64,000 bases of DNA, taken from the NCBI RefSeq assembly GCF_003086295.3, contig NC_092048.1, positions 89,818,626-89,882,625 of the forward strand. The letters are read 5' to 3'. The notes beneath the pieces are model-generated. The model was not told the origin of the DNA. It made no database searches and saw only the letters and a program-made list of their open reading frames with translations. This document shows positions 655 to 51,747 of this stretch, in pieces; positions within the stretch are counted from its first letter, which is position 1; every line of letters starts with the position of its first letter. The translations under genes and the position numbers were made by a program. This stretch comes from Arachis hypogaea (taxonomy: Eukaryota > Streptophyta > Magnoliopsida > Fabales > Fabaceae).

Positions 655-659
655 TAAAA

Positions 660-1399: not shown

Positions 1400-4300
1400 T
1401 CATTTAACGTCTCGAAATCGGCGCATCCCAATCTCATGTACCAATCTTTCAAAGGAGGATTTTGGGAGTGACTTTGTAAATAAATCTGCCAGATTGTCAC
1501 TTGAACGGATCTGTTGGACATCAATTGTCCCTTGATTTTGAAGATCATAAGTGAAGAAGAATTTGGGAGAAATATGCTTTGTTCTATCACCTTTGATGTA
1601 TCCACCCTTAAGTTGAGCAATGCATGCTGTATTATCTTCAAACAGGACAGTTGGAGCTATCTTATGATCAATTAGTCCACATGATGACAGAATATATTGA
1701 ATTAGACTTCTCAGCCAAAAACACTCGCGACTAGCTTCATGAATCGCCAGTATTTCAGCATGATTAGAGGAGGTTGCTGCTATCGTCTGTTTCGTGGACC
1801 TCCATGATATAGCTGTTCCACCATATGTAAACAGATATCCTGTTTGAGATCTCCCTTTATGTGGATCAGACAAGTATCCAGCATCTGCATAGCCAACTAG
1901 TTGTGACTTGGATCCATAGGGATAAAACAATCCCATATCAACCGTTCCATGAAGATATCGAAAAATTTGTTTGATTCCACTCCAATGTCTTCTGGTTGGA
2001 GAGGAACTATACCTTGCTAGTAAATTCACCGCGAATGATATGTCAGGTCGCGTATTATTAGCAAGATACATTAGCGCTCCAATGGCACTAAGATATGGTA
2101 CTTCAGGACCAAGGATATCTTCATTTTCTTCTTTAGGGCGGAATTGATCCTTTTTCACATCCAAAGATCTTACGATCATTGGGGTATTTAATGGATGTGA
2201 CTTATCCATATAAAATCTTTTCAAGATCTTTTCTGTGTATGTTGTTTGATGAATAAAGATCCCACCTTTTATATGCTCGATCTGCAGGCCGAGACAAAAC
2301 TTAGTCTTTCCAAGATCTTTCATCTCAAACTCTTCTTTTAGAGTTTTTATAATTGTTGGAATCTCTTCAGGAGTCCTAATGATATTTAAATCATCAACGT
2401 ACACAGCAATTATAACGAATCCAGATGCAGATTTCTTTATAAAAACACATGGACAGATATCATCATTCTTGAATCCGTTTTTGGCCAGATACTCAGTAAG
2501 ACGATTATACCACATTCGTCCAGATTGCTTTAGACCATATAAAGATCTTTGCAATTTGACTGAGTATAACCCTTGCGAATATTCATTGGATGGTTTAGAT
2601 ATCTTTAGTCCTTCAGGGACTTTCATATAGATATCTCGATCTAATGAGCCGTATAAGTAGGCTGTTACCACATCCATTAAATGCATATGCAGTTTATGAT
2701 ATGCAGATAAACTGACCAAATAACGCAATGTTATCGCATCCACTACAGGGGAATACGTTTCTTCATAATCTATACCGGGCCTTTGTGAAAAACCTTGTGC
2801 TACAAGTCGGGCTTTATAGCGCACAACTTCATTTTTCTTATTTCGTTTTCTCACAAATACCCACTTATATCCAACAGGTTTTACATCTTCAGGTGTACGG
2901 ACTACAGGTCCAAAGACTTCACGTTTTGCAAGTGAGTCTAATTCAGCCTTCATGGCTGCTTCCCATTTTGGCCAATCATTTCTTTGTCGACATTCTTCAA
3001 CTGATCTTGGCTCAATATCCTTACTTTCATGCATGATATTTAATGCCACATTATATGCAAATATTTCATTGACAATTGTCTTATTTCGGTCCCATTTCTC
3101 TCCTATAAAGACATAATTTATCGAGATCTCGTCATTTTCACAATTTTCAGGTACCTGAGCGTCTTCTGGTGTTATATCAGAATTTTGGACAACTGTATGT
3201 GTCTTTACTATGTCTTTTTCAACAGGAATATTATTTACCTCTTTTCTCTTTCGAGGATTTTTGTCTTTGGAACCGACAGGCCTGCCACGCTTCTGGCGTG
3301 TATTTGCTTCCGTGGCTATTTGTCCTACTGGGACATCAATTCGAATTGGGACATTTTCCGCCCTGCCACGCTTCTGGCATGAATTTGCTTCAGTGGCTAC
3401 TTGTCCTACTGGGACGTCAATTCGAATTGAGGTATTTTTCGCTGGTATGTAAGATTTGGTTATCCTCTTTGTATCGGAAAATGCATCAGGCAGTTCATTT
3501 GCTATTCTTTGCAAATGTATAATCTTTTGAACTTCTAGTTCACCTTGCCCTGATCGAGGATCTAAATGCATCAATGATGATGCATTCCAATTAAGTTCCT
3601 TTTCAGGAAGCTTATTCTCTCCCCCTAATGTTGGAAATTTTGATTCATCAAAATGACAATCCGCAAACCGGGCTTTAAACACATCACCAGTTTGTATCTC
3701 AAGATACCTCACTATAGAGGGAGAATCATATCCAACATATATCCCCAATTTTCTTTGGGGTCCCATTTTGGTGCGATTAGGTGGTGCAATGGGAACATAT
3801 ATCGCACACCCAAATATTCTTAAATGGGAAACATTTGGCTGCTGGCCAAAAGCTAATTGTATAGGAGAGAATTGATGATAACTCGTTGGCCTCAAACGAA
3901 TAAGTGCTGCGGCATGTAAAATAGCATGCCCCCAAACCGAGGTTGGGAGATTTGTTCTCATAAGCAAGGGTCTAACAATTAATTGGAGGCACTTAATAAG
4001 TGATTCTGCTAACCCATTTTGTGTGTGAACATAAGCTACTGGATGTTCAACACTTATTCCATTAGCCATACAATAAGCATCAAAAGCTTGGGAAGTAAAT
4101 TCACCAGCATTATCAAGACGAATTGCTTTAATTGGATTTTCTGGAAATTGTGCTTTTAATCGAATAATTTGAGCTAGTAATCTCGCAAACGCCAGGTTGC
4201 GAGAAGATAATAAGCACACATGTGACCATCTCGAAGATGCGTCTATCAGGACCATAAAATATCTAAAAGATCCACATGGTGGATGAATAGGTCCACATAT

Positions 4301-4960
4301 ATCACCTTGAATCCTTTCTAGGAATTCAGGGGACTCAAATCCAATCTTTACCGGTGATGGCCTTAAAATTAACTTCCCTCGAGAACATGCAGCACAACAA
4401 AATTCACTAGTTTTAAGAATCTTCTGGTTCTTTAGTGAATATCCATGAGAGTTTTCAATAATTCTTCTCATCATGGTTGCTCCCGGATGACCCAAACGGT
4501 CGTGCCAAGTTATGAATTCATTTGGGCTAGTAAGCTTCTGGTTTACAGTGGCATGTGATTCAATTGCACTAATCTTAGTATAATACAACCCAGATGAAAG
4601 AGAGGGTAATTTTTCTAATATAACTTTCTTATTTTAATCATGAGTTGTGATATATAAATACTCATGATTTCCCTCATTCATAGTCTCAATATGATATCCA
4701 TTTCGTCGAATATCTTTAAAGCTCAACAAGTTTCTTCGAGACTTGGTAGACAACAGTGCATTATTTATTATAAATTTTGTTCCTCCAGGAAACAAAATTA
4801 TAGCTCTTCCGGAGCCTTCTATCACATTGCCTGAGCCAATAATAGTGTTAACATATTCCTCTTTTGGCACAAGATGGGTAAAATATATATCACTTTTGAG
4901 AATAGTGTGCAAACTTGCACTATCCGCAAGGCATACATCTTCATTACATATCCTTGCCAT
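1400..4960 (-). pseudogene. Copia pol (protease, integrase, RT, RNase H) with one in-frame stop
   Basis: One reading frame runs from MARICNEDVC at 4960 to 1400 and is interrupted once by TAA at 4634-4636; the frame reopens immediately after it. In order it shows a protease-like CLADSASLHTIL motif (DSA active site), a GAG-pre-integrase module (WHDRLGHPG), an integrase core with the expected acidic residues (GDICGP, IRLDNAGEF, QNGLAES), a reverse transcriptase with YVDDL, and RNase H (SSNHAEILAIHEA, FEDNTACIAQL). This module order (integrase before RT) defines Ty1/copia. A 27-residue in-frame tandem duplication lies between integrase and RT. Apart from the single stop the coding region looks well preserved. 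Gag is in a different frame, so gag and pol are not one continuous ORF here. Confidence 0.93.
3281..3442 (-). repeat. 81-bp in-frame tandem duplication in copia pol
   Basis: Two adjacent 81-bp units (3281-3361 and 3362-3442) encode RIDVPVGQxATEANxxQKRGR twice, 27 residues per unit. The first translated unit ends QKRGRAENVPI. The second ends QKRGRPVGSKD, which is AT-hook-like. The frame is kept. The units differ at several bases, so the duplication is not brand new. Confidence 0.9.
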
Positions 4961-5231
4961 TCTTCAAAAACAAATAATAATAAAATGAATAGTATGCACA
5001 GTTAAATTGAATACTTGATCAGAATTATTTTTCTAAGAAACACTGTACATAAAATAATGTCATATACTAAAATTTTATTTTAAAATTTGACACATTTAAT
5101 AATTTCAAAATTCATATTAATATTTCATTATTTATGTACATCACATTTGAAACTTAAATACATAGAAAATAAAACTTAACAATAAGTTCTTTACATTATT
5201 TATTTACATATATACTTCACAATCCCACATA

Positions 5232-6206
5232 TTAAACTATTCCATCATTGATCAAATAACCAATATTTCCTTCAGGGTCCTCAAAGAAATCAGATACATC
5301 ATAATGAGTGGTGGAGTTCTCAGCATCATTTGAAACAAAATTTGTTTCCTTTCCTTTGTCGTTCTTTTTCAAAGATGCCTGGTAAAGATCGACTAGGTGC
5401 CTTGGGGTACGACAGGTACGTGACCAATGGCCCTTTCCACCACAGCGGAAACACTTCTCCTCGGTTGATTTATTCTGCCCGATATTCCTTTCTTTGTCCC
5501 ACTTCTGGTGAGATCCTCTTTTTTGAACATAATTCTTTTTCCTTCCATAATTTTTCTTGTTATTAAAAGCTTGCCATTTACCTCTTCTGGGGTAATGATT
5601 TGTCACATTTACTTCAGGAAATGGGGCGGCGCCAGTTGGGCGCGCTTCATGATTTTTCAATAACAACTCATTGTTGCGTTCGGCAACAAGAAGGCAAGAA
5701 ATTAACTCAGAATATTTTTTAAACCCTTTCTCTCGATACTGCTGCTGCAGGAGCACATTCGAGGCATGGAAGGTTGAGAAAGTTTTCTCCAACATATCAT
5801 GATCAGTTATTTTTTCCCCACACAATTTCATTCGTGAGGTGATTCGAAACATTGCAGAATTATATTCATTTATAGATTTAAAATCTTGTAAACACAAATG
5901 CGTCCATTCATATCGGGCCTGAGGAAGTATTACCGTTTTCTGATGATTATGCCTTTCTTCAAGGTCTTTCCAAAGATCTGCAGGATCTTTTAATGTAAGA
6001 TATTCATTTTTCAATCTTTCGTCAAGATGACGACGGAGAAAAATCATGGCTTTAACTTTATCCTTCTGGGATGCATTATTTTCAGCTTTAATGGTATCTC
6101 CAAGATCCATTGAATCAAGATGGATTTCAACATCTAGTATCCATGATAAATAATTGTTTCCAGATATATCAAGAGCATTGAATTCAAGATGAGAGAGATT
6201 CGACAT
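5232..6206 (-). CDS. Copia Gag nucleocapsid polyprotein
   Basis: This 324-residue ORF opens MSNLSHLEFNALDISGNNYL and carries the UBN2-like retrotransposon gag region (W-x-DLEERHNHQKT, residues roughly 75-200). Near residue 250 there is a single CCHC zinc knuckle, CFRCGGKGHWSRTC, for RNA binding. It forms the virus-like particle in which reverse transcription occurs. The ORF is intact and lies just downstream of the right LTR and primer site, as expected. Its stop at 5232 and the frame change before pol mean the element has separate gag and pol frames. Confidence 0.93.
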   Translation of the reverse strand: MSNLSHLEFNALDISGNNYLSWILDVEIHLDSMDLGDTIKAENNASQKDKVKAMIFLRRHLDERLKNEYLTLKDPADLWKDLEERHNHQKTVILPQARYEWTHLCLQDFKSINEYNSAMFRITSRMKLCGEKITDHDMLEKTFSTFHASNVLLQQQYREKGFKKYSELISCLLVAERNNELLLKNHEARPTGAAPFPEVNVTNHYPRRGKWQAFNNKKNYGRKKNYVQKRGSHQKWDKERNIGQNKSTEEKCFRCGGKGHWSRTCRTPRHLVDLYQASLKKNDKGKETNFVSNDAENSTTHYDVSDFFEDPEGNIGYLINDGIV

Positions 6207-6245
6207 AATGAAAATTTGTTACCTGAGTCTTCCTAAAAATTTGAT

Positions 6246-6266
6246 CAGAGTCTCGTGCTGATAACG
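6246..6266 (-). other. Copia primer binding site region
   Basis: Immediately inside the 5' LTR the minus strand reads CGTTATCAGCACGAGACTCT. The TATCAG core fits initiator-methionine tRNA, the usual copia primer, but the match is partial. The call rests mainly on position. Confidence 0.55.
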
Positions 6267-6811
6267 TGTTGTAAAATAAAAGATATATATAAAATAAAGT
6301 TGTATAAATAGAAGACTCTAGTATTAAAATAATTAGCTCAATAATAATTTATATATATATAATAAAATTATATATTGTATTGTGTATATATATATATATA
6401 CAAATATAGAAAGAAGTATTAAAAATAAAGAGAGAGAGAATCGCATTTGTTTATTGTTACAATCTCAATATAATAAAGATGATTAATATTGCTATTAATA
6501 TTATATGTAAAGAGTAATAGAAAATAGAATTTAAAATACTTATAAAATAAAAGAAGAGAAAGAATTATAGTAGAAATATAAGGAGAAGAGTATTTGATTG
6601 CAACATAAAAGAGGATTGATTTATTATTATTTGCTTGTGTATGAAAAGAAAGGGAGAATGGTATTTTTTGTTCTGTTACATTCACGGAGGTTCACCTCCT
6701 ATTTATAAGCTTATGGAAGGGATATTGTCAACCTTCATTTATTTCGTTCTCTTTTGAGAATGTAAACTTTATATAGGAAATGAACATCCACGTCCCATTC
6801 TTATCATAACA
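6267..6811 (-). repeat. Copia 5' LTR
   Basis: Partner of 660-1196. It starts TGTTGTAAAA and ends ATCATAACA on the plus strand, and is followed by the target duplication TAAAA. It carries a longer TA run than the left LTR. Confidence 0.93.
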
Positions 6812-14378: not shown

Positions 14379-16441
14379 CTAATAATTCATAACATGTCCG
14401 TGATATTGGCCAGAATTTGGTTGCACCACTGATGCAGCATCAAAAAGGTTTAACTGGAAATAATAAACTCACATATTAGCAAAACTATTAACAAGAAAAT
14501 TAAACTCAATCACCACCTATTTAAAGAACATCACTTTTACCTCATTTAGAGCTTTTGTTTTCTTCTTCTTTGAGGCATTTGCAATCTGTTTTGTCCAACT
14601 TTGAACCTAGCCTATTTTTTGGATGTCCTCTTGTTCGAACCCTTGAAGGGCTTTGAAGCTTGTTAACGGATTCCATGTTGGCATCTTCATGAGATAACGA
14701 ACATGTCCCCTTCCTTTTGGCTTTCAATTCTTCCATTTCAACCATGAAGTTATCGTAGGCACAGTGCAGAATGGCACTCAGCTCCTTCGATTCTGATGCA
14801 AATTCGCAAATATTTTGCGAATGAAACACCAATTCGTCAAACTTCTTGCTTCTTGGCTCCAATAGTGGCTCATCATGACTGCTCTTGATGTGTGTGTGTG
14901 TCACCTCTTTACCTTCTTGCTCCATCGTTCCAATATATATCTCGATGACACTTCAGTTACTCGTTCAAAGCTTAACACACTTAGGGTATGACGGCACAAT
15001 ATGCCTCTTAACTCGAATAATAAGCATTGACATTTCACTTGGGCTGCTACTGAGTCATAAGTAACCACAAACTTGTTGAATATTGAGTTGAAAACTTGTT
15101 CTCCAACTTCATATACTGAATAGCCTAGAGCGGAGTTCATTAATCTTGTGATGCAATTTGCCTTTCCTTTGAATTGTGCTTGGACTTCCCTAAACTTTTG
15201 GTGAGTGTACACATGTTGAAACTGGGTTTTAATGGAGGATTTTGTTGCACACGGTATGACCGTATGAAAATCTGTAGCATCTGATTTTCTCTCTGTTTGC
15301 TCCCTGCTTCCGAGGCAATTATTGTATTGTTTGACAAATTGGATAAGTGAGCTGTTCCGTGTAATGAACTTGTTAAAAAATGAATGCATGCTCTTGCTCC
15401 TTTGTGTGCTTCTCATCCCTGCCCAAAAGTGCTGATCTAGATAAATTGGAACCCATATATGACGGTCTTCGTAAAGATCTGTAGAATACACCCAAATCAG
15501 ACTATATCACACCTAAAAATATGCAATTTACACCTCTGCTGCAGATTTTAAACAACATTATCTGAAAGTCACTTATTGTCCACAAGACTATACTTCAGCA
15601 GAAAATCATTCCAATTCCTATCAAATGAGTCTTTGCTATGAGAGTTCCAAACAACTTGACTCATTTCTTGTTCAATTTCTGCATGACCCTTGTACCCATT
15701 TAATTTTCTTGAAATCTTCTTGATGATGTGCCAAATACACCAACGGTGAATTGTTGTTAGCATACAAGCCTCTACAGCCCTTTTCATTGACGCGCATTGA
15801 TCGGTGAGAATCCCTTTTGGAGCATTTCCTTCCAAGCAACGAAGCCAACATTGAAATTACCATTTGAATGATGCAATTTCTTTGTTTTTCATCAAAGCAC
15901 ATCCAAGAAGTGTTGATTGACCGTGGTGATTCACACCGACAAAAGAACCACAAACCAAATTATACTTGAAACAAATTACGAGATTGCAGAATGAAAATCA
16001 TTATGTACACCCAAAAACATCCAATATACACCTCTGCAGCAGATTCATAAAACAATATTAATTTAGCATCATAAACAAGAACAACATAATACCTGTTTGT
16101 ATTGTAGGTGGTGTCAAATGAAATAACATCTCTGAAATACCCAAAGGCAGCTCTGCTCCTTGCATCGGCCCAAAAAGCTAGCTTAATCGACTGATCATCC
16201 TCGAGTTCGAGCTCGAAAAAGAAATTTTGATTCTTCTCTTTCATTCTTAATAAATATTTCCCGAATTCTTTTGCATCTTCTTGTTCCGAAACATTCCGCA
16301 CTTCTCTCGTGATGTAATTCCTCACGTCTTTTTTGATAAAATTTAACTCGCGGTGACTCCCGGCTGCCGCAACGAATGATTGGTAAGTTTTTCTTGGTCT
16401 AATACTGGCTTCCTTGTTATTCTCTATTGTACGACGAACGG
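14379..16441 (-). pseudogene. FAR1-type MULE transposase, C-terminal two thirds
   Basis: Minus-strand exons give, in order, a FAR1 linker (near 16325), the MULE transposase core (AFWADARSRAAFGYFRDVIS, FDTTYNTN, ILTDQCASMKRAVEACM, RWCIWHIIKK) and a SWIM zinc finger (VKCQCLLFELRGILCRH, CxC...CxH). A basic C-terminal tail (RVRTRGHPKNRLGSKLDK) and a last exon (NLFDAASVVQPNSGQYHGHV) end at TAG 14379-14381. FAR1/FHY3 proteins are domesticated relatives of this transposase. Decay: a frameshift around 15836-15953, and TQRSKSMHSF where relatives have TQRSES, so the likely catalytic Glu is replaced by Lys. The 5' part of the gene is beyond the nested LTR insertion, at 28012-28857; reading resumes cleanly across AACGG. 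Confidence 0.85.
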
Positions 16442-16616
16442 TGATAAGTCCATATTTTACGATATATTTTGGTTTGATTTAAGTGGATTTCATCACATAA
16501 ACTCACATTTACTCATCTAAATAGCATGCTTTTGAGATTTCTTCCTAAATTGTGCTTAAAAGTGAAAACATGCTCTTTTGTGCTTAATTCTAGTCAATTT
16601 TATTCACTTTAATCCC

Positions 16617-18116
16617 TGACGTTAGGATTTTTGCTAGTAAAGAATTTATAAAAATAGTCGCGTTGTAGATATAGTTTCTAAACCAACAGAAATCCCTTCG
16701 TACAAATGTTTTGGTTGTCACAAGTAACAAACCCCTAAATAAATTGATAACCGAAGTATTCAAACCTCGGGTCGTCTTCTCAAGGAACTGCAGGAAAGTA
16801 TGTTCTTATTATTGGTTATGAAGATTGTAAATTGGGGTTTTGAAGATGAGGAACAAGTAATTTAAATTGCAATTAAAGTAAGTAAAAGACTGTAATTTAA
16901 ATAAATAACTGTAAAACACACTTTTGGCAAGGTATGAGAAATTAGAAGTTCTATCCTAGTTATCCTTATCAATGATGATGAAAATTGAATCTTAATTCCA
17001 CTTAGTTAACCTTTGCTAGAGCAAGGGAAGGTCAAGTGACTAATTAGTTAGATCCTCAAATCCTAGTTAATCCCTAAGGAAAGATTGGGATTATTGAAGT
17101 TCAATTCAATTAGCAAAAATAACGATTATCAATCATGTTGAGTTTGATAACTCCTGAGTTACTGATTTCTTAACCAAGACCAAAAGGGGAAAAGTAAATC
17201 TACTGGAATAAAAATGTCTTCAGATTGGGGATAAAAGTAACATAATTAAAAGAAAGCAATTGTGAATTGAAATACCTCAAATAACATTAATTCAAAGAGT
17301 AATCTGTAACATAGAAAAATTCATAAATTAAATTGAGAAAATAATAAAAAGGAATATTGAACCTGGTAAAGAGATAATCCTGAAAGCGCATAAAATCCTA
17401 AATCTAAATCCTAATCCTAAAGAGAGAGGAGAGAACCTCCCTCAAAACTACATCTAATTCATCAATGCTGACTAATTGGAGAGTCTCCCTGAATGGATGC
17501 ATTTCCCCACTTTATAACCTCTGATCTGTGCCTTCTGGACTTGGATTTGGGCCAAAAAGGACTTCAGAAATCGTTGGGAGCGTTTTCTGTAATTTCTGGT
17601 GCGTGACCTCTGTCACGCGGCCGCGTGGGTCACGCGGCCGCGTGGGTCACGCGGTCGCGTCAATTGGAGTTTTCCTTGTCGCGCGGTCGCGTCAGTCATG
17701 CGTCCGCGTCATATGCGTTTCACTCAAGGCACACGATCGCGTCAATCACGCGGTCGCGTCGCTGTTAATTCGCGTTGGCATGCGGCCGCGTCGTCCATGC
17801 GATCGCGTCGTTGCCAGTTTCTTCAAAAACTCCGTTTTGTGCTTTCCTTCCACTTTTGTATGTTTCCTTTTCATCCTTTAAGTCATTCCTGCCTTAGAAG
17901 ATCTGAAACTACTCAACACACGAATCACGGCATCGAATGGTAATAAAAGGGTAATTGAAATTATTACTTTTAAAGCACAGGAAACATGTTTTTCACATAC
18001 ATCACATAATAAGGAAGGGAAAGTAAAACCATGCAATTAATATGAATAAATGAGTAAAGGGTTAAATAAATCACTTAAATTAGGCACAAAATGTATCATA
18101 AAATATGGGTTTATCA
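16617..18116 (-). repeat. Element A 3' LTR
   Basis: TG...CA bounded, 1500 bp. It contains nine or more CpG-rich 12-bp boxes between 17615 and 17808. It is nearly identical to 25203-26619 outside the box region and longer by 83 bp, all of which falls in the boxes. Confidence 0.93.
17615..17808. repeat. Paired CpG palindrome boxes in element A 3' LTR
   Basis: ACGCGGCCGCGT at 17615-17626, 17632-17643, and ACGCGGTCGCGT at 17649-17660, each separated by 5 nt (GGGTC). Further pairs with 5-nt spacers end at 17797-17808. The perfect boxes are their own reverse complement. Confidence 0.9.
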
Positions 18117-18131
18117 ACCTCCCCACACTTA
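18117..18131 (-). other. Element A polypurine tract
   Basis: The minus strand reads TTAAGTGTGGGGAGG immediately before the 3' LTR, where the plus-strand primer site is expected. The same string adjoins the LTR in element B. Confidence 0.8.
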
Positions 18132-19871
18132 AACAATAGCATGTCCTCATGCTAAATCCAAGATAAAGAGGAAGGTAAGGTTGAAGTGGTGGAATCTCAT
18201 GCAATGCAATCTATTCTAAATGCAACTACCTAAATGCATCATGCAATTCTTAATTGTTATTTACTTGTATATAAAGCTTACATGTAGTTGAATTAATTCA
18301 CATTCTCAAGGAATCACATATACATAGCCAAACCTTAAATAATGATAAAGCACTTTTACAATTGAGATGGGAGAGAAAAACATTTTATAAACTTGCAAGA
18401 CAATTAATAATTCAAGCAGAGATATATGTTAATGAGCTATTGAACTCTTACTGGATTTTGTGTTTACTCTCTAGTCACTCGGTGTTTATTGGGTTAATCA
18501 CTCTATTCCTCTTTTTATCCTTTCTTTCTACAACTTTGTTCTTCATCTAACCAATCAACAATTATAGAATATAGACATACCAAAAATCATGAGGTCTTTA
18601 ATTAAGGTTGTAATGGGGCCAAGGTAAAGGCAAGGGTATATGTATAAGGCTAAGTGGGCTAATTAAGCGAATCCTTGATTAGTCTAAGATCTCACCTAAC
18701 ATACATACTTTGTAAAGCAGAGCTTCTTTACTTATTTTCCTATATTTTTTCCACTTTTGATACATGCTCATATTTTAATTTTTATCTTGTCCCATGTGTA
18801 TTGCTTTATTTTGCATGTGGGGAATTCTTTTGTATCCCCTTTATTTAAATACTGAAAAATAAATATACCATTTTTTTTAAATGCACATGGTATTTCAATT
18901 ATTTTGATTTCACATGAGCATACTTCCCAAAAAATTTTATTTTGAATTATTTTATTCTTTTCAACTTTCTACCCTTTGTTTTTATCATCCATGTTCCCAA
19001 TAGGTTTTCCACACTTAAACAATTACACACTTTCTATCTTAAGCTAACCAAGGATTCAACTTGGGATTTTTATTTTATTTTTCTGCTTAAGACTAGTATT
19101 GTGGTTTATAGAATAAGAGGGGTTTTAAAGGCTCAAGGGGGTTGACAAGGGTGATGTAAAAGGTAGGCTAATTTGGGATGAGTGAGCTAAAATCAAACAA
19201 TGGCTTCAATCACTCTCTTGGTATGTATTTCTATTCTATAATCGGACATATAGATTTAGAACAAAGTAAAGAACACCAGAATAAATAAGAAGGGTGGAAC
19301 ACACAGGAATAAAAATTATGGTTTGAATGTAACCATACAATTAAGCTCAAAACTCACAGACTGTGTGTTCTCTAACTCAAAAATCATATATCAGTTATGT
19401 ATGTCATGCAAGTAAAATTAAAAGTTCCCATTATTCTCAATGTAAAACTTAAGGTGGCTTTAAAGTTCTAGTGTTTCTCCTTGATGAAATATTGTTAACT
19501 AACTAACATATAATGCTATATACACAAGGTGTGTGGATTGTTTCTATTATGTCCAAGTTTCTAGTTTACTTCCTTTTTATATTTTCAATATAAACTAAGC
19601 TATCTTATGCTAAAAAGGGTAAACTATACTAATTAATCCATAATTTCTATAACTAATAAGTTAGAATTGCAACTAAACTAAATGGCTAAAATATGAACCA
19701 AAAATGCAACATGCAGAAATAGAGTCAAAATACATGAAAATAGCAATGTATAAGTACTGGGAAAATAAAAAAAATAAATAAAAATAAAGAGGAAAATACA
19801 GAAAAATAGCAAAATAAAATGAAAGAGTCTGTAGTGGTTCACCAAAAAAATACGCCAGAGATGGCGACCGC
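18132..19871 (-). other. Element A 3' non-coding region
   Basis: About 1.7 kb between ORF2 and the 3' LTR, AT-rich, with no supported ORF. It is alignable in order with the same part of element B (44753-46250): shared phrases include the tract CTCATGCTAA-like near the LTR and the block around TCATCTAACCAATCAACA. Confidence 0.6.
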
Positions 19872-19890
19872 CCCACACTTAAAATGAAAC
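19872..19890 (-). other. Second polypurine-like tract after ORF2 (element A)
   Basis: The minus strand reads TTTTAAGTGTGGGGCGG just downstream of the ORF2 stop. It nearly repeats the polypurine tract at 18117. Element B has the equivalent at 46250-46266. Confidence 0.65.
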
Positions 19891-19908
19891 ATCGTCCCTG
19901 GTGCTCAC

Positions 19909-21358
19909 TCAAGCAAGGTGTGAAGGGGTGTCATCACTGGATGGGTGGGTAGCTGGAGTCTCTGTGGTGGTGGTCTGAGGGTCTGCCTGCTGCAGAGGAG
20001 GTGCTGACTGAATAGAAACCTCAGGGTCTGCAGCCTAAATCTGATGCGGGGCCTCCTGCTGTGATGCAGCCTGCTCTGTGCCTGCCTGCGCAGCCTCGCT
20101 CTGTGGATGGGTCTCTGCCTCGTGATCATCCGCCTCCTTCTCAGAAGGCTCTGATGGTGTGTCAGGCTCGGAGGGGATATCGCCAGATCGTATCATCAGC
20201 TTCAGGTGCTTATAGCATTGCTTGCTGCGACGCTTAGCTCTCTCATATCGGCGTCGGTTGCGGTGCTCCATCTGGTCTAGCTGTCGAAACAGGCGGTGCA
20301 CTAGGTGATAAACTGGCTTTGAGGCAGGTGGAGGTGCAGTGGTGGTAGCAGGGGTAGCTGTAGAGGAAGAGGGGCCGGCAGATGGTGTGGCTGTCTCATC
20401 AGTAGGAGTGAGGAATGGAGGTCTGTAGCCCAAAGCCAGAAAGTTCCTGCTGTGAGGGATAATCTTCTTGCATTCTGCGGCAGGTGGTTTCTCATCAGCA
20501 TCCTCCCAAGGCACGTCAGCTCGACGGCCTAGCTGTGTAATCAGATAAGGAAAGGGGAGAGTGCCTCAAATGTGGACCCTGGCCATATAGTACCGAATAA
20601 AGCGTGGCAGGTACAGGTCCTTACCCTCCATCACACACCATAGGAGGGTGATCATAGCGGCAGGTAGCTCCGTCTCGTGAGTACTCGGCATAATAAAGTT
20701 GCTAAGGATCTGATGCCATAGCCGAGTCTCATCGTTCAAGTATGCCCGCTTGATTCCCTTAGGCATGGTGGTGTTCTGACCCATGACCCATGGGACAGTC
20801 GGGTCAAGGGCTATCCTAGCCTTGACTGCATCCCAATCAAACTTCATGAAGCGCATATCCTCCTCAGCTTTTTGATAACCATCCAGCTGATCGGATTTAG
20901 GCAGAAGCTTCAGAACATCCTCTATGGCATCTTCAGTGACCAGAATCTGCTTCCCTCTAAGGTTTACTGCATCTAGGGAAGTTTTGAAGTAATTGCAGTA
21001 GAATTCCCTTACCCAAGATGCATTGACCTCAGTCAGGTTTCTCTCCAGGAAGAACCAGCCTCTTTGTTTGATCTGATCAGAGGTGTATTGCTGGAGTTCT
21101 TCTGGGATCTTCAGAGTCCTTTCCAGGTACAGGTTCCTGGAGTTTGCAAACACCGGATACTTCAGCTCGCAGTATCAGTTTGCAAATTTAATGGGATCAG
21201 TAGCAGGAAGTAGTTGGTCAGCCTTCTCCTGCGGGGTAAAGTGTTTCTCCCGCCAGGAGTCATCATGCATGAGGTCCAGGATGGACATGGAGGATTCTCC
21301 TCTTTTCTGTTTGCCAGTGGTAATTTTGAAGTTTTCCTTTTCTCTGGGTGTCTGACAT
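19909..21358 (-). pseudogene. Element A ORF2, putative plant transposon protein-like
   Basis: The start is ATG at 21356-21358, directly behind a splice-acceptor-like TTTTTTGTTTTCCAG. The conserved block includes LDLMHDDSWREKHFTPQEKA, LYLERTLKIPEELQQY, GWFFLERNLTEVNASWVREF, DPTVPWVMG and PAAMITLLWCVMEGKDLYLP. It resembles the family annotated as 'putative plant transposon protein' (function unknown). A Pro/Ala-rich linker and a basic helix (EHRNRRRYERAKRRSKQ) follow, then an acidic, Gln-rich tail. Defects compared with copy C: one frameshift near the N-terminus, a TGA after IKFAN, a TGA after MARVHI near 20566, and TAG at 20035. The ancestral stop is 19909-19911. About 480 codons in the restored register length; copy C is better preserved. 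Confidence 0.7.
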
Positions 21359-21362
21359 CCTG

Positions 21363-22329
21363 GAAAACAAAAAACCAGGATATAAAAAAAAATAGGAAAA
21401 CAAATAGGCAAAAAATCAAAAGAAACACAAAGTGGCAAAGTAGCAATAGAAGAGAAAATTGAGTTAAGTAAATTTGCATTAAGGATTGTATAAGAGTTAG
21501 AATACTAAGAAGAAAAATGTCACAATCCAAAATGTACTTCAATTCAAGTTAATTAGAAAAAGTATCATCATGCCTTGGTTAGAATGTTAAAAGAAAGTGA
21601 AAAACCAGAAGAGATGGTTTGAAATGTTAGGTTTGGTTAGAATTGAAAAAGAGTTGAGGAAGTTAAAATTAGTGAGTTAGTAAAAAGTGGGTTAAAGTAA
21701 GTGGCATAATGATCATATTCCAAGTAACAAGCATTCACAATTAGAAGCTATAGGTAATTCATATCCAAACAAGGAAATTAGGTTGATGATGATTCAAATA
21801 GATATAGATATAGCAAAAATTGGAATCTAAACATCAAAAATACAGATTAAGAACCAGAAAATCAAAAAGAATAAGAAAGCTTGCCCTGGTATTCATGAAT
21901 TGGTTTGGTAAAAGCAGGGGAAAGCAGAGTTAAAAATGCCAAAACCAAAACATGAATGAAAATCAAAATAGTTTACAGAAATTTGGGCAGCATTCCGGCT
22001 AAAACTAGTTTTTTCCAGAAAATAAATAGCAATTAGAATAGTTCATATGAATGAAAATATAGCTGCAATTACATATAAGGAATAAGAACATGTAAAGTAG
22101 TGTAAAGAGCAGCATGAAATAAGAAATTACAGCATATGAACAGTAACAACATCACAGCAGCAGCAGAATTGCGAATTGAATAAAACAGGTAGCAAGAACA
22201 GCGCAATTAATCAGGCCTAAATCCACTAACCACATCCTAGGCTACCTAACAACCTAGAAAGTACTACAACATGCATATCTAACTAGCCTAATGATGAACA
22301 TAAACAGAAAAATAGAAAGTTAACGATGA
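21363..22329 (-). other. Non-coding segment upstream of ORF2 (element A)
   Basis: AT-rich, no ORF. It ends at the T-rich acceptor-like tract before ORF2, which fits intron sequence. Copy C has a homologous stretch at 62346-63362. Confidence 0.55.
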
Positions 22330-22800
22330 ATGGAAAGAAGGGTGACGATTAGCGGAACCTGGAAGGCGAAGGAAAGAAAGTGGGGCAGAGAGGTGGCTGG
22401 GGGATGGCGGTGGTGGCGGCAGACGCGGCGGTTGAGGGTGGCACGGCGGCGGTGGTGGCTGTTCGGAGGTAGGGTTTCGGGTAGGGAATGGGGGGGGGAA
22501 ATGGGAAGGAAGGGAAGGGGGCGTGGGTGGCGGATGGGTGGCGCGGCTGGGACGGAGCGGCGGCAGTGGATGGTGGTCGTGGAGGGGGCAGTGGCGGTGG
22601 AGGGAGGAAGAGGAAGAAAGAAGAAGAAAGAGGGGGAGAATGAGGGAGGGGGTGGTGGTACGGTGAGATCTGGGGGTGGTTGGCAGTGCGGCGGCAGCGT
22701 AGGGTGGCTGGGTGGTGGTTGGAAGTTGTGGGTGGTGGTTGTGGAGAGAAGAGAGGAAGGAGAGGGGGCTGGGGGGCGCGAATGGGTAGGGTTTCGCGTG
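22330..22800 (-). repeat. C-rich (G-rich on plus strand) low-complexity tract, element A
   Basis: About 470 bp of CCxCC-type sequence on the element sense strand. The plus strand is dense in GG and GGG runs. Apparent long Pro/His-rich or Gly/Arg-rich ORFs are composition artefacts. Copy C carries an equivalent at 61860-62330, and copy B a CT-rich tract at 46855-47030. Confidence 0.8.
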
Positions 22801-22824
22801 GCTGGGGGTTATTAATTTGAATCC

Positions 22825-23305
22825 ACGCGATCGCGTGGGGGACGCGGTCGCGTGGCTGGGGTGAAATGGGGGTCGACGTGATCGCATGGGTGGCGCGATC
22901 GCATAGAATGGCTAAAAGAGTGAATGACGCGATCGCCTGGGGCATGCGATCGCGTCGCTGGAAATTGTGCTAAACGCACGATTCCAGCATCGTTTCAGCG
23001 CAACTCTCTGTCTCCTTTTGGGGTGTTGTGTAATCCATGCGACGCGATCGCGTCGCTCACGCTGTCGCGTGGGCTTGATGTTGTGTAAGTGACGCGATCG
23101 CGTTAGGGACGCGATCGCGTTAGGGACGCGATCGCGTGGGCGTTTTGTGCAAAACGCACAATGGCCGCACGATTCCAGCCTAACTTTCTGGACGTTGGAT
23201 GTTTACGCCGATCTCCAGATCACGCGGCCGCGTGAATGACGCAGACGCGTGGGGAGTGTTTTCGCAACTTGACACGATCGCATGAATGATGCGGTCGCGT
23301 CGCGC
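22825..23305. repeat. Array of paired CpG palindrome boxes, element A internal
   Basis: Seven groups of 12-bp boxes of the ACGCGATCGCGT type. Inside each group the spacer is always 5 nt, for example 22825-22836 with 22842-22853, and the triple at 23092, 23109 and 23126. Centres are mostly AT, with GC, GT and variants. Decayed members show C-to-T or G-to-A changes at CpG. About 20-60 bp of conserved text such as GCGCAACTCTCTG separates groups. Confidence 0.92.
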
Positions 23306-23440
23306 ACCCTCTTTTTTTTTTGATGCAGTATGCAGAATGCAATGCTTAATATGAATGCTATGCAAAACTCCAAGTTCAATATAATAAAATAAAATAAAAC
23401 TTGAAAACAAGTAAAACTAAATAAAAAATATAAAAAAAAA

Positions 23441-23516
23441 GAATGATCATACCATGGTGGGTTGTCTCCCACCTAGCACTTTTAGTTAAAGTCCTTAAGT
23501 TGGACATTGGATGAGC
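23441..23516 (-). other. Conserved non-coding block after ORF1 (element A)
   Basis: About 75 bp just past the ancestral ORF1 stop, nearly identical in B (47671-47750) and C (61219-61294). It contains CTAAAAGTGCTAGGTGGG and a potential hairpin GGTGGG, 6-nt loop, CCCACC. It is non-coding in all three copies. Confidence 0.8.
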
Positions 23517-23522
23517 TTCCTG

Positions 23523-25086
23523 TTATGGTGGCTTATGCTTAAATTCATCCAGAAATCTCCACCAATGCTTGGAATGCCAATAGCCTCCGGGGTCCCAAAC
23601 TAGGCATGTAAAGCTTCTGAGCAGCTTCAAATAGATTCTCAGGCTCCCGGGGTGACGAATGTCAGAATATTCCAGGATCCCAAACTTGGCTTTTAAATCC
23701 GCCTTCGTCTTGATCTATATTTTTCCATCCGGGCGGTTTAGAAAGTAGATTTTCACCAAGGTGACCAAAAGTTTTCCGAGATCCATTCGATAGATCATGA
23801 TTCCAATCCGCACACTTTAAGTTGAAGCGTGGAACCTTATTGAACCTTGTGCACCAGCTCTGAGCACGAGCCATTTCCCTCTTACTCTTAAAGCCGCAGA
23901 GAGCTCTAAGCTGGCCATCTGTTTCAAGCAAACCATATTCAAGTGGAAAAATAAAGCTAAAGGTTAAGGATTGTACCCACTTGAAGCTTGTATTGGGTCG
24001 TAATGGCCTTGGGATAGGTGTTTCCAGTGGTTCTGTGAGCTCTACTCCCTTGTGCTCTTCTGTGAATTTCTCCACTTCTTTGCAGAATTCTTCAAATGCA
24101 ACTTCTTCTCGATCAAAGTCTTCTATGTCTTCCTCATCACTCAAGTCATAAGCGGGAGGTTGGGAGAAATCTACCTCCGCATCATCTTCGTATTCACTTG
24201 GGAAAGATTCTTCGATCTCAGAGAACTCACTTGCGGATGCAAGTTCATTACTAGGAGAACTTGACTTGTGACTATCATCATCAAGAAAACTTGCTTCTTG
24301 GATTATTCCGTCTAGTTCTTCATAAAAGACTTGCTCTGGGGGTTGTGTACTATCCTCCTTAGCATCAGTTGTAACGTCCTTGACAGAATTCTCCACAACT
24401 CTGGATTTCCATGAAAGTTCAGCGTCTCCTAAGTCTTCAACCAACTCTTCTTCTTGTATAATGACAGCTTCCTCTACTTGTTCTAATACGAAGTCATGCT
24501 CTGTCTTGTCTACTGGAGTTTCTAATATCTCCTTCATGCTACGCCCTTCATTAGATTTTCCACATGGGGCTCTGGGAGGTCCTTGAATGTTCGAACGTCT
24601 AGAAGATAATTGACTTATTGCTTGCTCCAGTTGATGAAGGGTTGTTTGAAGTTGATCTACTGTTTCCTTGAGGCGAACTTCTGATTCTCGGGGTGATGGA
24701 TTTGGACGTGGTACATTGGGAAGTGGTGGTGTTTGGGAGTAATTGGATTGGAATCGGGGTAAATGAGGATCATATAGTGGCGAATGGTGAAAAGGAGCTT
24801 GTGAGTGTGGTGGTTCAAAGTTGTGTTGAGAGGATGGCCTATAAGCATAGGGTGGGGCTTGCTGGTAACTACAAGGTTGTCTACTATGTCTATTGTCTTG
24901 GTATACATTGTAGAATGGTCTTTGTCCATGATATCTTGGAGGGTGTTGTTGCCTAAAGGGTTGATCAGATCCTCTTGGCTCCATCCATCTTTGATTGCTC
25001 TGACCTTGATGCATGTTCCTGTTATAACTTTCACTCCTTTCAACAATATTCGAACCAAACTCGAAGCGAGAGGGGTGAGAATTCAT
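23523..25086 (-). CDS. Element A ORF1, low-complexity protein with conserved C-terminal module
   Basis: I chose the start MNSHPSRFEFGSN (25086), homologous to MNSHPSGF in B and MTSHPRRF in C; an upstream in-frame ATG at 25131 is not shared. The frame is open for about 474 codons to 23662. The N-terminal 130 residues are rich in Gln, Pro, Tyr and Asn. A short coiled coil follows (RLKETVDQLQTTLHQLEQ), then a long acidic region. The C-terminal module has LLETDGQLRALCGFKSK and WDPGI. I recognise no known domain: no gag major-homology region, CCHC knuckle or enzyme motif. A small frameshift near 23662 cuts off the last 45 residues (SFTCLVWDPGGYW... in register, ancestral stop 23523-23525). It could be a replacement structural protein of the particle. 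That is inference. Confidence 0.75.
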
Positions 25087-25181
25087 AGTAGCTAATGGAA
25101 ATAAAAAGGGAGAATAAAGACAAATAAACAAGTAAAAGAAAAATATTTACAATAACCAATAATAAGGCACACAATTGCAGT

Positions 25182-25199
25182 TCCCCGGCAACGGCGCCA
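25182..25199 (-). other. Primer binding site, tRNA-Asp type (element A)
   Basis: The minus strand reads TGGCGCCGTTGCCGGGGA three bases inside the 5' LTR. This 18-mer is the well-known Asp-tRNA 3'-end complement used by Athila-like elements. Confidence 0.92.
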
Positions 25200-25202
25200 T
25201 TT

Positions 25203-26619
25203 TGACGTTAGGATTTTTGCTAGTAAAGAATTTATAAAAATAGTCGCGTTGTAGATATAGTTTCTAAACTAACAGAAATCCCTTTGTACAAACGTTTTGG
25301 TTGTCACAAGTAACAAACCCCTAAATAAATTGATAACCGAAGTATTCAAACCTCGGGTCATCTTCTCAAGAAACCGCAGGGAAGTATGTTCTTATTATTG
25401 GTTATGAAGATTGTAAATTAGGGTTTTGAAGATGAGGAACAAGTAATTTAAATTGCAATTAAAGTAAGTAAAAGACTGTAATTTAAATAAATAACTGTAA
25501 AACACACTTTTGGCAAGGTATAAGAAATTAGAAGTCCTATCCTAGTTATCCTTATCAATGATGATGAAAATTGAATCTTAATTCCACTTAGTTAACCTTT
25601 GCTAGAGAAAGGGAAGGTCAAGTGACTAATTAGTTAGATCCTCAAATCCTAGTTAATCCCTAAGGAAAGATTGGGATTATTGAAGTTCAATTCAATTAGC
25701 AAAGATAACGATTATCAATCATGTTGAGTTTGATAACTCCTGAGTTACTGATTTCTTAACCAAGACCAAAAGGGAAAAAGTAAATCTACTGGAATAAAAA
25801 TATCTTCAGATTGGGGATAAAAGTAACATAATTAAAAGAAAGCAATTGTGAACTGAAATACCTCAAATAACATTAATTCAAAGAGTAATATGTAACATAG
25901 AAGAATTCATAAATTAAATTGAGAAAATAATAAAAAGGAATATTGAACCTGGTAAAGAGATAATCCTGAAAGCGCATAAAATCCTAAATCTAAATCCTAA
26001 TCCTAAAGAGAGAGGAGAGAACCTCCCTCAAAACTACATCTAATTCATCAATGCTGACTAATTGGAGAGTCTCCCTGAATGGATGCATTCTCCCACTTCA
26101 TAACCTCTGATCTGTGCCTTCTGGACTTGGATTTAGGCCAAAAAGGGCTTCAGAAATCGCTGGGAGCATTTTCTGTAATTTCTGGTGCGTGGTCTCTGTC
26201 ACGCGGTCGCATCAATTGGAGTTTTCCTTGTCGCGCGGTCGTGTCAGTCATGCGTCCGCGTCATATGCGTTTCGCTCAAGGCGCGCGATCTCGTCGTCTA
26301 TGCGATCACGTCGTTGCCAGTTTCTTCAAAAACTCCGTTTTGTGCTTTCCTTCCATTTTTGTATGTTTCTTTTTTATCCTTTAAGTCATTCATGCCTTAG
26401 AAGATCTGAAACTACTCAACACACGAATCACGGCATCGAATGGTAATAAAAGGGTAATTGAAATTATTACTTTTAAAGCACAGGAAACATGTTTTTCACA
26501 TACATCACATAATAAGGGAGGGAAAGTAAAACCATGCAACTAATATGAATAAGTGAGTGAAGGGTTAAATAAATCACTTAAATTAGGCACATAATGTATC
26601 ATAAAATATGGGTTTATCA
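25203..26619 (-). repeat. Element A 5' LTR
   Basis: 1417 bp, TG...CA bounded, partner of 16617-18116. Only about five boxes remain at 26201-26311. Flanked by ATCCC on its right. Confidence 0.93.
26201..26311. repeat. CpG palindrome boxes in element A 5' LTR
   Basis: Shorter counterpart of 17615-17808, with boxes such as ACGCGGTCGCAT and ATGCGATCACGT. It lacks two full 17-bp units and a 49-bp box-to-box segment present in the other LTR. Confidence 0.88.
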
Positions 26620-26804
26620 ATCCCATTTGGTGCCTTGATGTATTTGTTAAGTGATTTCAGGTTTCCAAGGCAAGCATGGGTTGAAGAAGTGAGAAAAAGA
26701 GCATGCAGAAAGGGAGAAACCTTGAAGAAATGGAGTTTGGAAATTCCAGCATGTGTGCGCACGCACAACTATGCGTGTGTACGCACAAGGAAGATTTGCG
26801 AGCG

Positions 26805-26850
26805 ACGCGTACCCGTGACCCACGCGTACGCGTGACCCACGCGTATGCAT
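26805..26850. repeat. CpG palindrome boxes in the solo LTR
   Basis: Three 12-bp boxes, ACGCGTACCCGT, ACGCGTACGCGT and ACGCGTATGCAT, at 26805, 26822 and 26839, each separated by GACCC (5 nt). More degenerate related text flanks them (26745-26790, 26874-26900). Confidence 0.88.
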
Positions 26851-28011
26851 GGGAGTGAATTGCACCAAACGACGCGTACGCGTGACTCGAGTCACGTGAG
26901 CTCATTAATGCAAATCGCTGGGGGCGAATTCTGGGCCTCCAGAACCCAGTCCAACTCATTTCTGGAGCTATATCAAGCCAAAGTGAAGAGGAATGAAGAG
27001 GGGGCAATTAGGTTTAGCTTTTATCATGTTTTAGTGTAGTTCTCTAGAGAGAGAAGCTCCCCCCTCTCTCTAGAGTTAGAGTTCTTTAGTTTAATTTCTT
27101 GTAATTTCTACTTTTAATTCTTGTTTTTATTTACTTTTCCTTGTCATTTATTGTTATTGTATCTTTGTTCTTCTTTATTTCTCTTGTTATTTCCTTTATT
27201 TTGTCACTTTTATGTTATGAGCACTCTTTGTTAATTTTAATTTTCGTTTAATACAATTTATGTTTTATGTTCATTTAATGCTTCTTTTAGTTGTTGTTAT
27301 GATTTTCTTACTTTTGGTAGTTAGATTTTATTTTTAATGCATTTTAATATTGTTTTATTCTCATGCACACTAAGTGTTTGATAAAATGCTTGGCTTAGTT
27401 TTCACTTAGTTTTTCTCCACTCTTGGCTTAGAATTGACGACTTTGGTGACCCTTGAGTCATTGATGTCCATTCTTGTTTGATATATTAGAGTAGTTAGTT
27501 GATTTGGTTTCCCTTGAATCTAAGTGACCTCATAGTGTTGACTTAGGACTTAGGGATTGAAATCAACTATGCCTATTTTACTTATCCTCGTTGTAGGGTT
27601 GACTAAGTAGGATTAACTCTTCATAATCATCATGTGTTTGTGGTCAATGGCTAGGATAGGTAACCTTAGTTCTCAATTACTTGCCAAGAGGTTTCTTGCA
27701 TTTGAAGTTTTATTGCTTTGACTTTTATTGCTTTGACTTTAATTTCTTGCATGAACATTTAATTCCTTGCTATTTATATTTCTTGCTCTCTTGCTTCCCC
27801 AATTTCCATGCTCCCTCATAGCCAATAATTGTACATTTCATTGCAACTCCTAGGGAGAACGACCTGAGGTTGAATTACTCTTGATCTTGGTTACTTTAAT
27901 TTGAATTAACATTTGATCGTGAGAATTCATTGTTGGTTTGGACTATGCTACCAACGAATTGATGCTTGTTTTGATTGATTCCAAACCGTACAAGGATCCT
28001 CGTGTCTATCA

Positions 28012-34517: not shown

Positions 34518-34628
34518 AAGAAATAAATTAGTGTGAACTGTGAAGCTAAAAGGTGTAAAGTCAATACTCTCTCACATTCACAGAGTGAGTGAGCAAAATC
34601 CCAATCTCGCAATATTCCAATTGGAACA

Positions 34629-36730
34629 ATGAGTGGTGTAAGCAACAACCTAACAGCAATACTGAACTTCATAGCAATATTGGCGTCGATTCCAATAATA
34701 GCCTCGGGGATATGGCTGGCATCAAAGCCGGACAACGAGTGCATCCACAATTTCCGGTGGCCAATAGTATTAATCGGGTTCCTGATCCTTGTGGTGGCAC
34801 TGGCAGGCTTCGTGGGTGCCTACTGGAACAAGCAGGGTTTGTTGGCCGTTTACCTCTTCTTCATGGCGCTCCTCATCGCTGCACTCCTTGTTGTGCTTGT
34901 GTTTGCTTTTGTGGTTACAAGACCCGATGGAAGCTATGACGTTCCCGGAAGAGCCTACAAGGAGTACAGCCTTCAAGGCTACTCTTCTTGGTTGAGGAAT
35001 CATCTCACCACTTCCGGGAGTTGGCAGAACATAAGGACCTGTTTGGCTGATTCTGATGTATGCATTAAGCTTGCACAGAACTACATTACTGCTGACCAGT
35101 TCTTCGCCTCTCACATCTCTCCTTTACAGGTAACTGCTAAAAATTGGATAAATTCATATTCAATTTGGTGTGTCTTTATCTTCGTTTCGCTTTTCATCAC
35201 TGGTACTTTCCGTTTCTGCTCTTGTACTTGCACTGAGAAATATTCACTTACAAGGTCCATATCTGTCAGTGGTTTTCTTACTCCTGTTTCTTCTTCTCTT
35301 GGAAACAAATAATATGTGAATTATTGGTAATTAACAATAACATAAAGGTTTTGCGTATTTTTAAAGGAATTTATTTCTCGTATCTTGTACTAGCTTAGTC
35401 CCACTTCACATGATGCCGTGTTACTTGTTTAGGGACACTTCTAGTTTCTGAATCTAAGGATTAATTTAATTTAATTTTAAAAAGGGGATTCTAGGTTATT
35501 GAATTGGAAGTAAAGGACACTGTATTAAGTGGATCTAAAAAGTTATGATCTCATGGATTTTAGTTGAATCTTTCATATATGGCTCTGTTAAGATTAGGAT
35601 ACCTTAATTCAGAATCGGATAGTTACTGACATATATATAAGAGGCTGTGAAGAACGATATGGTTCCCTTGTCAAAGGGGGTAGTTAGTTAAGAAGTTATT
35701 CTATTGTGGGCTTATGGTGGTGGTTGGGGAAGAGTGTTCCCGTGATGCTTTTGGTGGGATTGGGACCACATTCTTGATGTATAAACAATTAAACATACCA
35801 ATCAGAAGATCAATAACTACGTGGACTTGAATTTTAAGAAAAATTATTATATGGTTTGATTTAATCAATCCGTAACAAACTTCTAGTCATGTCATGTAAT
35901 GTAAAATTTTCCAATATAGTTCCCATCTCATTCTTAACTTGACCCACCACCTAAGTCATAGGTTCAACTTCATGTTTGAAATTTGTGGTTAACTGGCTCT
36001 CCACGCCATAGTGTGACTGTGACCTGCTCTAGCAGATAACTATGGTCCATTGAAATCTAATCGTCAGCGAGTCCATTATAAGAAGGAAAAAAAAAATTCA
36101 AATGAAGTCTTAAATTTAGAATAATTTAGAACCTGACATTAGGCACATCCCTTGTTCTCAGTGCTTGTGTGGGACATTTCTCATATTCTATAGGATGAAT
36201 GATTGAGCCACAGCAGCTGAAATAGCCACCTATGGATTCACATGTACAGAAATCATACAAACGTATACCTTGTTAAATTAGTCAACCTACTAGAATAATT
36301 AACCTTATTGTTTTGTCTTTTACTGAACAATGAAGATAAAAAAGTCTGGCGCACTATTAATATTAAATTATTAAATGGTGCCAAATGGTTGATGGATTGG
36401 GTGGTTTGATTATTACAGTCAGGGTGTTGCAAACCTCCGACATCATGCGGGTTCAACTATGTGAGCCCCATCATGTGGACAAACCCTGTGAATCAGATGG
36501 CTGATCCTGATTGCTACGCTTGGAACAATGATCTGAGCCAACTCTGCTACAATTGCAACGCCTGTAAGGCTGGTCTGCTTGGGAACCTTAGACAAGAATG
36601 GAGGAAAGCAAACATAATATTGATTGTCGCTGTGGTGGTTCTCATTTGGGTCTATGTCATTGCCTGCAGTGCCTTCAAGAATGCTCAGACTGAAGACCTC
36701 TTCAACCGTTACAAACAGGGCTGGGTTTGA
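34629..36730 (+). CDS. TET2: Tetraspanin, TET2-like, two exons
   Basis: Exon 1 34629-35129, intron 35130-36418 (GT...AG, 1289 bp), exon 2 36419-36730; 270 residues, usual plant tetraspanin length. Membrane segments lie at about 8-28, 44-66, 71-95 and 231-253. The large extracellular loop carries the plant signature GCCKPP at 169-174, CGFNY, and further Cys residues (CYNCNACKAG). The single intron just before GCCK is the conserved plant position. The ending AQTEDLFNRYKQGWV and the segment FAFVVTRPDGSYDVPGR match the TET1/TET2 clade as I remember it. Tetraspanins organise plasma-membrane microdomains; TET1 (TORNADO2) acts in leaf and root patterning, while TET2 is less studied. The gene appears intact. 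Its promoter is interrupted by a hAT element. TET2 rather than TET1 is a judgement by similarity. Confidence 0.92.
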
Positions 36731-44737: not shown

Positions 44738-44752
44738 ATCTCCCCACACTTA

Positions 44753-51742: not shown

Positions 51743-51747
51743 ATCAC

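Follow-up and report, generated by a model that had tools for sequence, protein, structure and literature searches.

Short activator motifs, repeated in the U3 part of the LTR upstream of the TATA box, are carried by the tobacco retrotransposons Tnt1 and Tto1, and the legume Ogre elements have variable tandem arrays of long, satellite-like units in their untranslated regions. In Arabidopsis, the VANC21/VANDAL21 system is based on a short motif found many times over in several non-coding regions of a single transposable element (TE) family; this 9-mer (YAGTATTAY) always runs in the same direction within its arrays, its binder is known, its variants are of a C type and a T type, and motifs within tandem arrays evolve together (PMC5735166). 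Host CAMTA proteins, which bind DNA through a CG-1 domain, have the published consensus (A/C)CGCG(C/G/T) (PMC10417383). Here, we describe arrays of a CG-rich 12-bp box in a 64-kb stretch of Arachis hypogaea DNA (the window) and in the genome from which it was taken.

The box, ACGCGNNCGCGT, contains four CpGs and consists of two inverted ACGCG half-sites on either side of two free bases. Exact sites number 21 in the window and sites with up to 2 mismatches number 75, compared with means of 0 and 1.7 in 50 dinucleotide shuffles; between 22800 and 23320, there are 7 exact boxes, whereas 500 shuffles of the local sequence average 0.01. The inner spacing is rigid: counts of ACGCG-Nk-CGCGT gave 131 pairs at k=2, and no other k from 0 to 6 had more than 1. 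Two larger spacings, k=7 (15 pairs) and k=13 (60 pairs), also occurred, which we read as the product of TA-centred boxes at a 5-nt gap. Among 71 non-overlapping boxes in the window, neighbors with starts no more than 130 nt apart were separated by 5 nt in 32 cases, by 20 to 22 nt in 18, by 28 nt in 1, and by 84 to 87 nt in 6. The preliminary description had boxes separated by exactly 5 nt; this is indeed the dominant gap, but gaps of 20 to 22 nt are also preferred. It had also placed the boxes in an AT-rich region, whereas positions 22001 to 24000 have a GC content of 49% and the whole window one of 36.6%.

The array at which the boxes were originally noticed belongs to element A, an LTR retrotransposon (16617 to 26619, minus strand, as are all of its features given here) that sits within an LTR (X) of another element. 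It was delimited by a BLAST search for its LTR pair and by the target site duplication ATCCC (16612 to 16616 and 26620 to 26624). The 5′ LTR (25203 to 26619) and the 3′ LTR (16617 to 18116), likewise placed by BLAST, are direct repeats with TG..CA ends and are 96.97% identical in an alignment of 1418 bases (K2P distance, 0.031). Directly after the 5′ LTR comes TGGCGCCGTTGCCGGGGAAC (25180 to 25199), which we take to be the primer binding site (PBS), and directly before the 3′ LTR comes the polypurine-tract-like GTGTGGGGAGG (18118 to 18128). The U3 array of the 3′ LTR (17615 to 17808) has 9 boxes, arranged as one triplet and three doublets, while that of the 5′ LTR, which is about 83 bp shorter here, has 5 (26201 to 26311). 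These boxes lie roughly 100 bp upstream of a TATA box read from the sequence (TTATAAAG, 17510 to 17517); in the 3′ LTR, TATAA starts 98 bp past the last U3 box in the sense direction, and the counterpart in the 5′ LTR is TTATGAAG. The internal array (22825 to 23300) occupies a non-coding stretch and holds 15 boxes, grouped as doublets apart from one triplet. Here, the sites first reported (22825/22842 and 23092/23109/23126) were recovered along with 23042/23059, 23222/23239, and 23272/23289, and there are further gaps of 21 to 22 nt and of 84 and 86 nt.

The 84-nt gap of this array harbors a second dyad, TTGTGC-N5-GCACAA (23145 to 23161, minus strand). When GTGC-Nk-GCAC was counted in internal arrays, there were 23 occurrences at k=5 and 0 to 6 at each other k between 0 and 15. 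The same dyad or a near form of it was seen at loci L002, L009, L021, L030, L031, L038, and L044, and a GAGAGTTGTGC motif accompanies it in array gaps of about 85 nt. Directly following the internal array, positions 22288 to 22820 are strongly strand biased, being C rich on the minus strand, with long proline-rich open frames; this stretch may represent the 5′ end of a captured gene or the leader of an internal promoter. Element C has open frames resembling these after its own array.

With regard to coding capacity, element A has a 494-aa ORF1, read from stop to stop (23662 to 25146), without a Pfam match, and a piece of ORF2 (20566 to 21174) that matches PF20167 (Transposase_32; E value, 1e-26). 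The ORF2 frame is open past the stops on both sides (20035 to 20565 and 21175 to 21504), which suggests that this copy may be broken. A Pfam scan of 10 minus-strand and 2 plus-strand ORFs, all of at least 70 aa, returned only PF20167 above the cutoff; neither reverse transcriptase nor integrase, both of which an autonomous element has of its own, was detected among them. The structure prediction for ORF2 was unusable (mean pLDDT, 36).

Three further elements in the window also contain boxes. LTR X has 4 boxes with TA centers (26805 to 26883, plus strand) about 85 bp before a TATATC box. Like element A, elements B and C carry boxes in both places, U3 and internal. Element B, whose LTRs (43227 to 44734 and 49528 to 51036) are 91.8% identical, has a doublet in the U3 of its 3′ LTR (44265 to 44293, minus strand), an internal array (47060 to 47462, minus strand), and further doublets at 50567 to 50595 and 51270 to 51298. 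Beside its 5′ LTR there is an extra partial LTR (49528 to 51745 together), such that 44028 to 44740 also matches 51033 to 51745, at 91%. Element C has 6 boxes in U3 (58411 to 58555, plus strand) and 13 in its internal array (61417 to 61839, plus strand). Elsewhere in the window, a second LTR element at 654 to 6811 has long minus-strand open frames for gag and pol, presumably Copia-like; the ORF at 14901 to 15506 contains a SWIM zinc finger (PF04434; E value, 1.7e-5) and is, we assume, MULE- or FAR1-like; and a plus-strand ORF of 239 aa (34593 to 35312) reads to us like a tetraspanin-type membrane protein and may be a host gene.

The phenomenon far exceeds the window, and tens of thousands of CG-rich boxes are present in rigid pairs. 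On the plus strand of the 2,557,474,382-base genome, pattern counts, all of which are lower bounds, gave at least 35,972 exact box pairs with a gap of 5 nt, 172 with gaps of 0 to 4 nt, 669 with gaps of 6 to 19 nt, and 18,409 with gaps of 20 to 22 nt; reversed-pattern controls gave 5, 4, 1, and 2, respectively. Per single gap length, this amounts to about 34 (0 to 4 nt), 35,972 (5 nt), about 48 (6 to 19 nt), and about 6,136 (20 to 22 nt). Tabulated over genome copies, the spacers thus form the sharp 5-nt peak expected from the preliminary description and not a broad distribution. When 20 arbitrary 10-kb stretches were scanned, 64 sites had no more than 2 mismatches to the motif, and their spacing included 20 gaps of 5 nt and 12 of 20 to 22 nt; single sites of the reversed motif were nearly as common (46), so only the gap histogram is informative in these stretches, and for the reversed motif it showed one gap of 5 nt and no peak at that length. 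No exact doublets were found in the viral contigs searched. Loci for the comparisons below came from the initial 16 Mb of a single contig and from the 20 stretches, all in this one genome. At L021 (939 to 1110, 5161 to 5666, and 9028 to 9056), the arms are often GCGCG..CGCGC instead of ACGCG..CGCGT, with the 12+5 geometry unchanged.

The U3 layout of element A is kept by related LTR families. In several of these, the U3 arrays are followed by a common promoter block, GCGATTTCTGGG..GGCCCA, and then by a GA/CT leader; TATAAAG occurs within the block in only part of the arrays. A regular expression for the block matched after 14 of 60 arrays with at least two boxes, and the distance from the last box was 38 to 41 bp in 12 of the 14 (48 and 53 bp in the other two). 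A TATA box lies downstream of the U3 array in the 3′ LTR of A, in B and X, and at L015 and L043, and it is degenerate or absent in the 5′ LTR of A, in C, and at L001, L018, and others. The similarity of U3 between families is partly due to shared ancestry. Moreover, the pattern used for the TATA box had no match within 300 nt downstream of the internal arrays of A, B, and C, and a promoter role therefore leaves the internal array unexplained.

Pairwise alignment of 55 arrays with at least four boxes, labeled from one sequence only, revealed which parts of the arrays are retained. Since array pairs are not independent, the contrasts are given without P values. Once arrays are at least 10% diverged, change is smallest in the ACGCG half-sites and greatest in the two center bases. 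At 20 to 30% non-box divergence, half-sites differed at 12.8% of positions, the 5-nt spacer at 32.4%, the 20- to 22-nt gap at 31.1%, and the center at 54.9%, and CpG loss was 16.5% (381/2305) in boxes versus 49.4% (477/965) outside. At 10 to 20% divergence, the values were 10.4% for half-sites, 16.5% for spacers, 19.4% for gaps, 25.2% for centers, and 12.1% outside, with a CpG loss of 11.9% in boxes versus 31.9% outside. Boxes may, however, anchor an alignment, and they were therefore masked before realignment. Half-sites then differed by 27.9% in the 20 to 30% class, no less than the flanks (20 to 35%), owing to slippage of 151 of the 1400 boxes relative to their partners; CpG loss was still 33.5% in boxes versus 53.4% outside. 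With the 151 slipped boxes dropped and 65 lost boxes kept, half-sites differed by 17.2%, non-box positions by 25.6%, and centers by 61.3%, and CpG loss was 20.5% (138/674) versus 50.0% (163/326). In all three variants of the alignment, center positions differed by 55 to 65% where non-box positions differed by 20 to 30%.

In near-identical copies, half-sites decay faster than their surroundings. Below 5% divergence, half-sites differed by 5.8%, centers by 5.1%, gaps and positions outside by 2.0 to 4.0% (2.0% and 3.3%, respectively), and spacers by 1.0%, although CpG loss was 7.1% in boxes versus 11.3% outside; at 5 to 10%, half-sites differed by 6.4% versus 1.9% for spacers. In the LTR pair of element A, 6 of 50 half-site positions differ. 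This fits CpG decay, as 59 of 73 mismatches in window boxes are C>T or G>A. In single copies, half-sites appear to decay like methylatable CpGs and to be kept only across families, so we infer selection behind their retention at the family level only. Neither is it the full palindrome that is kept. The boxes had been described as their own reverse complements when intact, but the center is self-complementary in only 34 of 70 window boxes (up to 3 mismatches), and most are inverted half-site pairs without a full palindrome. In the pooled set, self-complementary centers (119 of 330) were no more frequent than under within-array permutation (126), and the palindrome as such was discarded as a conserved feature; the conserved property is the ACGCG half-sites together with their 2-bp spacing.

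Could the arrays simply be functionless minisatellites that arose by descent and slippage? Tandem Repeats Finder does report 17-bp units, and spacers are more alike within than between arrays (Fst-like value of 0.23, and 0.35 for centers, in 17 nonredundant arrays). LTR and internal arrays of the same element also resemble each other in their centers (likeness of 0.405 versus 0.300; p = 0.036; 6 elements) and in their spacers (p = 0.006), and the decay of half-sites in close copies is as slippage and descent would have it. We nevertheless consider this explanation improbable, given that, in diverged arrays, both the half-sites and the CpGs within them persist longer than spacers, gaps, and outside CpGs, as the initial verdict of "not a simple minisatellite" would have them do. 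In addition, there are two gap lengths (5 and 20 to 22 nt) and no single period, the distance to the promoter block is nearly fixed, and the head-to-tail arrangement with one period and unit-wide similarity that defines a minisatellite was not found. Recognition by host CAMTA proteins, by which the elements would respond to calcium or stress signaling, is in our estimation about as improbable. The boxes do contain the CGCG core, the sixth base is preferentially T (474 of 958 halves), and at least one half matches the consensus in 347 of 479 boxes. By the same measure, 132 of the 479 have no matching half, and the commonest center of element A, AT (14 of 29 boxes), yields ACGCGA in both halves; nor does CAMTA itself account for the 2-bp and 5-bp rules. 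Arrays of dimer-binding sites fit better than either a simple minisatellite or plain CAMTA sites.

A different reading, raised in the preliminary description as hairpin or cruciform units, treats each doublet as one 29-nt inverted repeat that would form a hairpin with a 12-bp stem and a 5-nt loop in DNA or RNA, the boxes mattering for their structure. Partner centers covary as this predicts in our samples but little genome-wide, and we regard it as unlikely. When folded as DNA, two intact doublets form the complete hairpin (−16.5 and −19.9 kcal/mol; z of about −6), whereas two others fold poorly (−7.8 and −9.7). Complementary partner centers were found in 28 of 132 doublets versus 18.6 under within-array permutation, and in 41 of 175 versus 29.3 in a larger set; across the 19- to 23-nt gap there was no such excess (6 of 120 versus 7.8), and the second dyad shows the same 5-nt gap. 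In 128 oriented doublets (strand set for the six window arrays; 21 of 58 arrays of unclear strand dropped), Watson-Crick center pairs numbered 118 of 256 versus 98.8 expected, and the pair formed by position 6 of box 1 and position 7 of box 2 topped all 1176 position pairs in covariation, although unrelated pairs also reach z scores above 3 owing to relatedness. The excess depends on which loci are counted and on how they are collapsed: at up to 3 mismatches, 19 of 88 doublets were complementary versus 16.6 (p = 0.13), and at up to 5 mismatches, 9 of 41 versus 7.8; the earlier loci alone, collapsed at 3, gave 19 of 81 versus 12.8 (p = 0.005), but those fetched last gave 15 of 50 versus 12.0 (p = 0.06). 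Genome-wide, the complementary purine/pyrimidine classes (RR-YY, 1436; YY-RR, 1194) exceeded the noncomplementary ones (RR-RR, 1125; YY-YY, 1129) by only 2,630 to 2,254, or 54:46; fully complementary centers numbered 8 among the first 50 genome-wide matches listed. Moreover, G·T center pairs (31 versus 42.5) are as depleted as A·C pairs (34 versus 40.6), which argues against RNA-like wobble tolerance and led us to reject the RNA form of the hairpin. There were no Rfam matches at the gathering threshold in 16500 to 27500. Triplets, too, are at odds with a hairpin, and stem arms need no palindromicity of their own. Partner pairing may shape the centers in some families but is not a genome-wide rule, and we conclude that dimer half-sites explain more.

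The reading that we prefer, and to which we give somewhat better than even chances, is that the arrays are dimer-binding sites in TE promoters that serve to activate or de-silence the elements. Conserved half-sites around a free center are the usual signature of a dimer site. One protein dimer would bind the two facing ACGCG half-sites across the two free bases; repetition of the unit after exactly 5 nt would set two dimers side by side, 17 bp from center to center, and such pairs would recur about every 50 bp. With one array in U3, at a nearly constant distance upstream of the core promoter, and a second in the internal non-coding stretch, the arrays would most probably attract a DNA-binding protein, encoded by the host or by the element, that reads palindromes and binds cooperatively; this protein would then activate or de-silence the retrotransposon. 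The set of U3 boxes just upstream of the element's start site looks like a putative docking platform for such a switch-on protein. Of the original proposal of two dimer sites on a fixed helical phase, dimer sites appear to be the best reading of the sequence; the phasing is not, since 17 bp is about 1.6 helical turns, which puts adjacent boxes on different sides of the helix. An alignment of the boxes along one helical face was accordingly rejected.

One tentative extension, which we would not ourselves bet on, is that the center bases are a fast-changing specificity code while the half-sites anchor a shared dimer, each retrotransposon lineage thereby tuning to, or escaping from, a coevolving binder. 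CpGs in plant DNA of this kind are normally methylated, and with four per box, the binder could be a methyl-CpG-reading activator, in which case silencing marks would aid its recruitment. Should the boxes bind a protein at all, one short probe would isolate a regulator of very numerous elements (at least 35,972 exact doublets) and reveal how a promoter that can be methylated stays usable in a TE lineage. The combination of a conserved half-site with a hypervariable center would also make coevolution of binder and TE directly testable beyond Arabidopsis.

How does this design compare with known systems? As in Tnt1 and Tto1, repeated U3 motifs precede the TATA box, although the sequence is another one, and we know of neither a 12+5 rule nor a second internal array in those elements. 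Like Ogre, the elements have tandem arrays in non-coding parts, but here a 12-bp motif is kept and the rest varies. The CAMTA CGCG box shares the CGCG core and is a single site without the fixed inverted pairing of our boxes. As in the VANC arrays, the motif occupies several non-coding parts, here U3 and internal; unlike them, it is the symmetric ACGCGNNCGCGT and not YAGTATTAY in one orientation, an inverted half-site pair with fixed distances of 2 and 5 nt, and it resides in LTR retrotransposons. A binder encoded by the TE itself, as with VANC, would be attractive, because the motif occurs in several non-coding parts and the type of center differs between families. The concordance of centers between LTR and internal arrays was set aside as proof of such a trans-acting reader, as spacers agree too and the effect is nonspecific. 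No paper describing the paired-box design was found in our search of open-license literature. Tandem motif arrays in the non-coding DNA of TEs are already known, as in VANDAL and VANC; what sets the present arrays apart is the paired-box geometry.
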